From Paenibacillus guangzhouensis (GTDB taxonomy: Bacteria; Bacillota; Bacilli; Paenibacillales; Paenibacillaceae): a DNA stretch of 64,000 bases. Each line of letters starts with the position of its first letter. Positions within the stretch are counted from its first letter, which is position 1. The translations under genes and the position numbers were made by a program. Positions 3,499 to 63,238 of this stretch are shown piece by piece. The stretch spans positions 5,295,001 through 5,359,000 of the forward strand of contig NZ_CP045293.1 of the NCBI RefSeq assembly GCF_009363075.1, read 5' to 3'. Under the pieces are notes generated by a model. That model saw nothing but the letters and a program-made list of their open reading frames with translations, did not search any database and was not told the DNA's origin.

Positions 3499-3528
3499 TG
3501 GCTATATTCTCGCTTTCTATACATGCGT

Positions 3529-3695
3529 GTTCAAAAAGTCGGCATTTCAGCACTGAGAAGGTTGCGGGAACCTGAAGAAGGAGGAACGGAGTTTAGGCGA
3601 AACCTAAATGAGTACCGGACTTCGAAGGTGAACGCAAGATTCGATGTCGACTATGCTTCTTGAATGACTTCGTGATCAAATGATGAATTTTGAAC
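3529..3695 (-). repeat. Intergenic repeat copy A (GTTCAAAAAGTC family)
   Basis: A 167-bp element between folB and folK, bounded by GTTCAAAAAGTC at one end and a TTTTGAAC end. Read on the minus strand it is about 96% identical to copy E near 62619. It contains the inner hairpin TTTAGG-TTTCG-CCTAAA and the conserved segment CATCGAATCTTGCGTTCACC. The open frame across it is not a gene. Confidence 0.9.
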
Positions 3696-3712
3696 TACCT
3701 CTAAACATCAAT

Positions 3713-34140: not shown

Positions 34141-34207
34141 CGCATGGCCCCTCCTTTACTAAGACTAGCTTATGGGGAGGACGTCCACTTTAGAACTCAA
34201 AGAGGAA

Positions 34208-34410
34208 GTTCAAAAAGTCCGATTTTGATCACGAAGATTTTAAGGGAGTAACTCGGCATCGAATCTTGCATTCACCTTCGAATTCCGGTACTCATGTAGG
34301 TTCTGCCTACACTCCGTTCCTCCTTCTTCAGCTTCACGCAACCTTAGTAACGCTTACGATGTCAGTTTTCTACGAAAACTTTCAGGTACTGAAAATCGGA
34401 CTTTTTGAAC
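34208..34410 (+). repeat. Intergenic repeat copy B (GTTCAAAAAGTC family)
   Basis: A 203-bp element between yabO and yabP with 19-bp perfect inverted ends (GTTCAAAAAGTCCGATTTT). It has the conserved CATCGAATCTTGC core. The inner hairpin TGTAGG-TTCTG-CCTACA differs from copies A, D and E by a paired base change. It carries one module with the GTTTTC-TAC-GAAAAC hairpin. Together with the yabO terminator it fills the 350-base gap. Confidence 0.9.
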
Positions 34411-34433
34411 CTGCAATTTAATAACTACCGCCA

Positions 34434-39079: not shown

Positions 39080-39141
39080 GTTCAAATAAACCTGAGTCTG
39101 CTACTTGAAACACATCGTGATCAAAAGATGACTTTTTGAAC
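39080..39141 (-). repeat. Intergenic repeat copy C, internally deleted
   Basis: A 62-bp derivative between spoVT and prsA. It keeps both ends (GTTCAAATAAAC and GACTTTTTGAAC) and the GATCACGA-type outer segment, but lacks the whole centre of the other copies. Confidence 0.7.
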
Positions 39142-39276
39142 AACCTCTTTAACTGGTGGTTGATTTAAAATCTGACCATAGTATTCATCTGCTCCCAGTT
39201 TCTTATACATCTCGATTGTACGCTCATTTAAAGGAATCGTTTCATAAAAAAACAGAAAATAGTGAAAAAATTTCAC
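39121..39276 (-). pseudogene. Possible coding remnant next to repeat copy C
   Basis: A 51-codon open frame from a GTG without a ribosome binding site. Its first third runs through the prsA terminator. The middle reads like real protein (IPLNERTIEMYKKLGADEYY, then GQILNQPPVKEV). The last codons and stop come from the repeat. I do not recognise the family. It may be the end of a gene destroyed when the repeat arrived; chance is also possible. The rest of the spoVT-prsA gap holds only the repeat and the terminator. Confidence 0.25.
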
Positions 39277-58368: not shown

Positions 58369-58380
58369 CTCCATATGGAA

Positions 58381-58618
58381 GTTCAAAATCGACTTATGAT
58401 CACGAGGCTCCTCGAGAAGTGTATTCGACATCGAATCTTGCGCTCAGCCTTGAATAGCATATGCTTCCGATGTATGTTTCCTTTGGAAACATTTCAGGTG
58501 CTCATTTAGGTTTCGCCTAAACTCCGCTCCTCTTTCTTCGACTTCACGCAACCTAAGCATATGCTTCCGATGTAGTTTTCTTCGAAAACTTTCAGATGCT
58601 GATAAGCCGATTTTGAAC
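58381..58618 (+). repeat. Intergenic repeat copy D, longest form
   Basis: A 238-bp copy between the convergent ends of abrB and rsmI. Its inverted ends are GTTCAAAATCGACTTAT-like (16 of 18 paired). It holds the CATCGAATCTTGC core, the TTTAGG-TTTCG-CCTAAA hairpin and two copies of a module of about 48 bases beginning AGCATATGCTTCCGATGTA. The modules' small hairpins are GTTTCC-TTT-GGAAAC and GTTTTC-TTC-GAAAAC. Apart from this and the abrB terminator the gap is empty. Confidence 0.88.
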
Positions 58619-58655
58619 CTTTATTTAAAGACATAGCTTAATCCAAAACCTATAA

Positions 58656-62578: not shown

Positions 62579-62618
62579 AGTAGCCTCACTTTCACATCCA
62601 TTATTGCTTCTAGAGGTT

Positions 62619-62786
62619 GTTCAAAAAGTCATCATTTGATCACGAAGTCATTCAAGAAGCATAGTCGACATCGAATCTTGCGTTCACCTTTGAAGTCCGG
62701 TACTCATTTAGGTTTCGCCTAAACTCCGTTTCTCCTTCTTCAGGTTCTCGCAACCTTCTCGGTGCTGAAATGTCGACTTTTTGAAC
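62619..62786 (+). repeat. Intergenic repeat copy E (GTTCAAAAAGTC family)
   Basis: A 168-bp copy between yaaR and holB inside a co-directional operon. Inverted ends GTTCAAAAAGTCATCATTT pair 17 of 19. Core and hairpin are the same as copy A, which is in the opposite orientation at about 96% identity. Confidence 0.92.
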
Positions 62787-62794
62787 TCATATTT

Positions 62795-63238
62795 CTAGAA
62801 GCAATAATTAATTAACAACCCACGAACCTCGCCAATCTTATTCAATAATTCGATTTTCCCTTCTTCGCTGTTCAACAGCTCTTCCGCCATTGCAATCAAC
62901 GTCGAATCGATTTCTTCTAATAATTTGTAGCGTTTACCACGACCTCTTCGATCCCAGCCACGCGCGTCTTTAATGCCAAGTCCTCGGCGAACGGTATCCT
63001 CCAAGAACCGCTTCACCATCGTTCGATAGAGATATAATTCTCTTACCGTCATTGATTTCGCAAGGCGATCTCCTTGCTGGTGAATTTGTTGGAGGCGTTG
63101 ATTGAGCTCCTCCTTCGAGGCATGCTGGTCTTGTTGGTACATGAAATCAGCGAAATTTTTCTGGCCAATCTGTTTCGAAGCATTGTCTGTCAGCTTGAGC
63201 TCCTGACCCAGCGGCCGAAAACCCGGATTAATCTTCAT
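62795..63238 (-). CDS. yaaR: YaaR-family protein (DUF327)
   Basis: A 147-residue, mostly helical protein of unknown function that is conserved between yaaQ and holB in Firmicutes. Basic centre RRGLGIKDARGWDRRGRGKRYKLLEEID near 85-112 is the family hallmark, and the tail ends GEVRGLLINYCF. The ATG at 63238 has GAGAG upstream with rather long spacing. Confidence 0.88.
   Translation of the reverse strand: MKINPGFRPLGQELKLTDNASKQIGQKNFADFMYQQDQHASKEELNQRLQQIHQQGDRLAKSMTVRELYLYRTMVKRFLEDTVRRGLGIKDARGWDRRGRGKRYKLLEEIDSTLIAMAEELLNSEEGKIELLNKIGEVRGLLINYCF

Follow-up and report, generated by a model that had tools for sequence, protein, structure and literature searches.

The intergenic repeats analysed here probably belong to a widespread family of non-autonomous, MITE-like elements with a structured, modular interior, which would be moved by a DDE-type transposase acting in trans and whose spread might be aided by an RNA fold. 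Our best reading is that this family is new and that selection acts on the folded interior as such, with RNA more probable than DNA as the selected form. The family ranges from Paenibacillus to genomes outside the class and can reach dozens of copies in a genome; a single one of its modules appears to be all that had been described. An initial annotation of the region had left a choice between a MITE-like and a structured-RNA repeat. The first half of this description is borne out by a copy (copy E) with a 5 bp duplication and an empty site in a sister species, the second by compensatory changes in the interior fold, and the two halves seem to describe one thing.

Copies in the window and across the query genome

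The window is the whole 64 kb stretch of DNA that was analysed (G000:C1:5295001-5359000) and lies in the 6.95 Mb genome of Paenibacillus guangzhouensis (query genome G000). All five copies reported by the initial annotation were found in their places (Table 1), and copy E corresponds to a match of the covariance model R1 at G000:C1:5357612-5357791. Inverted ends had been ascribed to all five copies; this holds in general, but copy C is without a good right end, and the ends of copy D and the left end of copy A are mutated. Copies A and E do have opposite orientations, with an identity of 94 % over 177 nt and not the 96 % first given. The folded strand of copy E is the minus strand, which is presumed to be the RNA sense.

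Table 1. Positions of the element copies and of the target duplications of copy E in the window
Feature	Position	Strand	Description	Basis
Copy A	3523..3701	-	Short-form unit, orientation opposite to copy E	
Copy B	34202..34416	+	Unit whose right arm carries one hairpin module; without clear target duplication	
Copy C	39080..39147	-	Left-end fragment (loss internal or of the right end)	
Copy D	58375..58624	+	Diverged older unit with two hairpin modules and mutated ends; without clear target duplication	
Copy E, left target duplication	62608..62612	.	TTCTA	Sequence, sister-species comparison
Copy E	62613..62792	+	Complete short-form unit, 180 bp	Sequence, site empty in G001, model R1 match
Copy E, right target duplication	62793..62797	.	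TTCTA	Sequence, sister-species comparison

Pfam matches of the neighbouring genes agreed with the earlier placement of the copies between genes, two of them in gene pairs that proved co-directional. Copy A separates folB (PF02152) from folK (PF01288), and copy E separates a DUF327 gene (PF03885), previously read as yaaR, from the gene for DNA polymerase III delta' (holB; PF13177). Copy B is flanked by a YabP gene and an S4-domain gene, copy C has a spoVT-type gene on one side and a PPIC-type PPIase gene on the other, and copy D lies between convergent AbrB/MazE-type and TP_methylase genes. At gathering score, Rfam matched the window at a single place, a c-di-AMP riboswitch (RF00379; 55243-55429, minus strand, 83.8 bits).

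The family extends past the window: BLAST detected it elsewhere in the genome, and both BLAST and model R1 detected it in relatives. Exact matches to the 12-mer GTTCAAAAAGTC number 58 in the 6.95 Mb genome, compared to a single one for the reversed control. A BLAST comparison of the five copies with 49 stretches of the genome (184,330 bases, outside of which diverged copies may be missed) identified 50 places with the family, 30 of which have both ends. The units sit between genes.

Ends, target site and mobility

The ends and target site were defined from 201 copies, each with both ends within one mismatch and AGG before the left repeat. In the consensus, the ends of the unit read GAGGTTGTTCAAAAAGTC and GACTTTTTGAACACGCAY, and a 5 bp target of the form TWWWA is duplicated. 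Left and right flanks match at the three central positions in 76–78 % of cases versus 39–45 % expected, and the T...A frame is almost fixed (T in 167 and A as last base in 187 of the 201 left flanks), with CTWWWAG as the preferred target. Unit length is ~150–400 bp, under the ~500 bp that delimits MITEs, and the terminal inverted repeats and target site duplication of MITEs are both present. The 5 bp duplication, inverted ends and preferred target together suggest a DDE-type transposase acting in trans. This enzyme would recognise the ends and may be encoded elsewhere by a gene without these ends, or in other strains.

Target-site duplications and empty sites in relatives, which the initial annotation had proposed to look for, were found for copy E. 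At this locus the sister species (G001) reads GCTTCTAGAAGC with no element, in flanks that are 87 % identical, and G002 is also without the element (flanks 76–78 %). The simplest account of the perfect duplication and the empty sister-species site is a recent insertion of copy E that duplicated TTCTA. The site of copy A is occupied in G001 and unoccupied in G002; copy A is older than copy E, and its duplications (3518-3522 and 3702-3706) match at four of five bases. The repeats had been proposed to be either recently mobile or maintained by gene conversion: recent movement applies to copy E, copy A is older and common to the sister species, and there may be conversion between copies.

Elements also change without moving. 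The G001 element at the site of copy A has three hairpin modules and copy A has none, which indicates that modules are gained or lost without relocation of the element, whether through deletion, insertion or gene conversion. Two Paenibacillus species have a full and a deleted form within the same flanks (L236, L196), so that deletion in place is possible. Many forms of ~40–80 bp retain both ends, several of them with a duplication visible by eye, and the persistence of such ends-only forms suggests that the ends alone may suffice for movement.

Tandem arrays of three to four units with a period of ~185 bp were observed at L098/L113 (G014), L114 and L117 (G018), L115 (G019) and L257 (Paenibacillus oryzae), the last with a 5 bp duplication between successive units. 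Matches to the element were also present in three plasmid records and one phage record, all from Paenibacillus. Paenibacillus cellulosilyticus has 25 places on NZ_CP054613.1 (2.7 Mb) and three on NZ_CP054609.1 (0.5 Mb), both records classed as plasmids, and Paenibacillus phage Pd_22F (MZ092003.1) has a partial match. The left-end pattern was detected in seven viral contigs, with a real element in one (L136, an IMG/VR contig), where the element is complete and has an extra left domain; the other six appeared unrelated by eye. The copies on L136 and MZ092003.1 raise the possibility that viruses are vehicles between hosts.

Search for an autonomous partner

By the tested features the family is MITE-like, with the exception of an autonomous partner, none of which was seen. 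Neither a transposase-bearing copy nor an IS with the same ends that might supply a transposase was seen in G000, in G413 or, among the matches listed, in G148. G000 has 65 left-end matches at up to three mismatches, with ~19 expected from the control; the surroundings of 14 of the 58 exact 12-mers and of 10 further stretches were read. G148 has 86 copies and at least 107 left-end matches, and 29 stretches were read around ends unexplained by those copies. In both genomes, the ends read that did not belong to known copies were truncated or internally deleted forms, or lone and probably chance matches. The 19 matches in G413 consisted of 13 known copies, five modular or deleted forms and one lone match. 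A pair of ends 1.27 kb apart (L384) encloses aspartate kinase and semialdehyde dehydrogenase genes. At 10 loci, 18 ORFs next to lone ends were compared with Pfam; 14 belonged to ordinary families, four had no match, and none was a transposase.

Conserved fold of the interior

The strand opposite to copy E folds as a long branched hairpin closed by both ends. This fold was evaluated in an alignment (A1) of 58 of the 63 short copies, the five omitted being four from tandem arrays and one with an internal deletion. Paired cells made up 94.8 % of the total versus 82.3 % in shuffles, 33 of 48 pairs had changed on both sides among these 58 distinct copies, and the covariation score was 0.365 compared to 0.141 for shuffled and 0.037–0.070 for slid alignments. 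None of 500 shuffles scored as high on any fold measure; related sequences can exceed such shuffles, for which the pair- and type-counting measures are safer, and both of these beat all shuffles. The basal helix GAAG/CUUC was omitted from the model because it showed no covariation. An internal loop, GGA/GA, adjoins a G-U pair that is retained in 56 of the 58 copies, and the unpaired stretches are also conserved; both features look like those of RNA. A Bacillaceae-type set (18 copies from 20 rows, two having been dropped for wrong orientation) is built along similar lines, and changes on both sides were counted in 18 of its 45 pairs. The interior retains one branched fold through compensatory changes in distant relatives. 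The element encodes nothing obvious yet its fold is maintained by compensatory change, and whether RNA or folded DNA takes part in the spread of miniature transposons can therefore be tested directly.

Hairpin modules and Bacillaceae-1

Elements of the query genome have up to three homologous hairpin modules of ~40 nt, whose positions in the arms are constant and of which the second has the reverse orientation; an extra domain of ~105 nt can sit before the core. The arms of Bacillaceae relatives hold other modules. The modules are exchangeable within the arms of the fold and present in either orientation. Another module type, with hairpins resembling AAGACTTGCC...GGCTTAGTCG, was observed outside the class Bacilli at L406, L407 and L410 (G413), and a type TTGGAAAAG...CTTTTCCTGCGTGCGA is inserted near the core terminal loop at L247, L253, L234 and L192 in Bacillaceae relatives.

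One Bacillaceae module type is the Rfam family RF01690 (Bacillaceae-1), with 16 matches in 10 of 27 distinct loci (sets of 12 and 18 were scanned, with three loci common to both). Ten of these matches were placed inside elements by script and five in elements with decayed ends by eye, with one outside; 20 of the scanned loci were 8 kb stretches picked for an element end, of which the element makes up a few per cent. The matches occur on both element strands. Bacillaceae-1 has been listed as certainly RNA and probably not cis-regulatory (Weinberg et al. 2010, PMC2864571). To our reading, it is a module of the mobile family that has hitherto stood in Rfam as a separate sRNA.

The initial annotation had recognised no named family in the repeats, and no Rfam family matched the window copies at gathering score across the whole window; yet, as described, a module of relatives in other genera does match RF01690. 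The window copies had no match to RF01690, either at gathering score across the whole window or, for copy D, at E up to 10; the best match of any family to copy D at that threshold had an E of 0.37 and fell far short of its cut-off. No Rfam 15 family matched the core in the stretches scanned, the Bacillaceae-1 module being the only part of the elements that was matched.

Distribution across the Bacillota

BLAST detected the family in 23 of 59 relatives. Model R1 matched 66 of the 148 genomes scanned in the bacterial family, in a patchy distribution with many genomes without a match, 31 of 250 genomes of the class and eight of 199 genomes of the phylum; each of these counts includes the query genome, and all are low estimates because the scans were run with stricter filters. 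Strong full-length matches, with E near 1e-39, were obtained in another family of the class (f32/g56). Weaker full-length matches (E ~1e-5 to 1e-10; all R1 E-values are rough) were obtained within the class in G080, G120, G148, G212 and G222, and outside it in G342, G378, G408, G413 and G418. Apart from one G080 copy with poor ends, the copies read from G080, G120, G148, G212, G222, G408, G413 and G418 mostly have the usual ends and kind of core.

Among the matches listed, elements were found in Oceanobacillus, Lentibacillus, Terrilactibacillus, Terrihalobacillus, Fredinandcohnia, Priestia, Bacillus and Pseudalkalibacillus, and some matches to named records, including one in Brevibacillus, were attributed to chance. 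Weak matches in G129, G132, G140 and G293 are without the usual ends or in other contexts, and we are not sure that they are members. At L167 (G129) and L168 (G293), core-like hairpin stretches adjoin 5S rRNA; those at L167 are repeated together with 5S-like fragments, and the usual element ends are absent there. Annotation of the family could put a name to unexplained intergenic repeats numbering in the thousands, a figure guessed from copy counts.

Strand and possible role of the fold

On the folded strand, the raw ratio of G-U to A-C cells was 121:16. This is inflated because the copies share ancestry, and changes were therefore counted on trees instead. For 63 copies, tree-counted G-U and A-C changes stood at 52:16 in total and 24:16 in the inner helices; the terminal helix contributed most of the total, and preferences specific to the ends could produce such a signal there. 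The ratio was 11:5 in the Bacillaceae set. For 99 copies it was 56:27 (P=0.002), with 33:16 (P=0.02) in the inner helices and 23:11 (P=0.06) in the terminal part, these P values taking changes as independent. The strand signal is modest and favours, without proving, RNA on the minus strand of copy E.

The relevant form of the fold might instead be single-stranded DNA or a cruciform, for example in replication or in a transposition complex, which we regard as possible but doubtful. Both strands fold near-identically, with 50 common pairs, the ends pair with each other, and DNA tolerates G-T better than A-C, all of which count towards such a role. However, the folded strand is the more stable of the two (-80.1 versus -62.1 kcal/mol), and the retained G-U lies beside a purine-rich internal loop, as in RNA.

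The inverted ends, constant 5 bp duplication and miniature size would also suit an ordinary MITE of an unrecognised IS, with the fold retained only because folded insertions that are terminator-like or neutral to the mRNA are least harmful to the host. The insertions are intergenic and often within co-directional gene pairs, and the A5/T5 runs of the ends lie next to stems, in keeping with this unlikely account. Limitation of harm would, however, affect both strands alike, contrary to the strand bias, and would leave the conservation of unpaired motifs across families unexplained.

Copying of the RNA by a reverse transcriptase in trans, as a bacterial SINE-like element, is very improbable: the RNA-like fold, the strand bias and the fact that no transposase-bearing copy was seen are consistent with it, but inverted ends, a constant 5 bp duplication and a short preferred target typify a DDE transposase. 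The conserved fold and location between genes might suggest a cis-regulatory or attenuator RNA kept for host benefit at each site, but this is hardly credible given unrelated neighbouring genes, the lack of copies E and A at the same sites in related species, and the lack of orientation bias (of 33 co-directional gene pairs, 13 have the folded strand in sense and 20 in antisense orientation, counted for the 50 places with a crude ORF caller).

As none of the insertions checked is shared by more than close species and no orientation preference was observed, a host role of single copies does not account for a fold that persists in distant relatives. Most simply, the fold would be of use to the element itself. 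Its active form would be RNA, with the sense of the strand opposite to copy E, and it may be retained since the spread of the element depends on it; both of these steps are less sure than the action of a transposase in trans. An RNA partner in spread would rank first among the roles of the fold, followed by folded DNA and then by harmless insertions. A further, tentative proposal is that these are RNA-dependent miniature transposons, which would require their own folded modular RNA, would rely on a solo transposase whose gene lies elsewhere and lacks such ends, and would have had modules, including Bacillaceae-1, swapped between them as interchangeable arms. If this were true, the class would reach past the Bacilli and would explain an Rfam 'sRNA' without an assigned role.

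Comparison with known systems

A literature search yielded no description of the family; most subscription literature was outside its reach, and this is weak evidence of novelty. HEARO and OMEGA-RNA elements and IStrons resemble the family in being mobile elements that carry a structured RNA. They differ in that the present family has inverted ends and a 5 bp duplication, which IS200/IS605-type elements do not have, and no Rfam match to HEARO, OMEGA RNA or the IStron intron was obtained in the scanned stretches (E up to 10, 5 and 1). The BOX elements of Streptococcus pneumoniae are presumably also similar, as modular structured intergenic repeats with variable internal modules; by description, the modules of the present family are distinguished as arms of one fold that occur in either orientation. 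BOX elements are named in PMC10969869.

The bcr1 and other repeats of Bacillus cereus are likewise interspersed, 100–400 bp long and present in many copies per genome, with mobile features (PMC6542083, where Okstad 2004 and Kristoffersen 2011 are cited for bcr repeats), and stem-loop folding has been reported for bcr elements (PMC2267715). As far as these descriptions go, bcr elements are set apart by a TTTAT motif and by being specific to the B. cereus group, whereas the present family has a far wider spread and a T-W-W-W-A duplication, the last base of which was A in 187 of 201 left flanks. A duplication of ~5 bp is shared with IS families such as IS1634 and ISH3, but the terminal bases listed for these do not fit GAGGTTGTTC / GTGCGTGTTC (PMC2266710), and no transposase of such families was seen beside the examined ends.

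Bacillaceae-1 (RF01690) is one of the hairpin modules inside Bacillaceae-type copies and is absent from the window copies. It is a 67 nt piece, and the available part of its description includes no mobile unit with ends, core and duplication (PMC2864571). The Bacillaceae-1 'sRNA' can accordingly be re-read as part of a mobile element.
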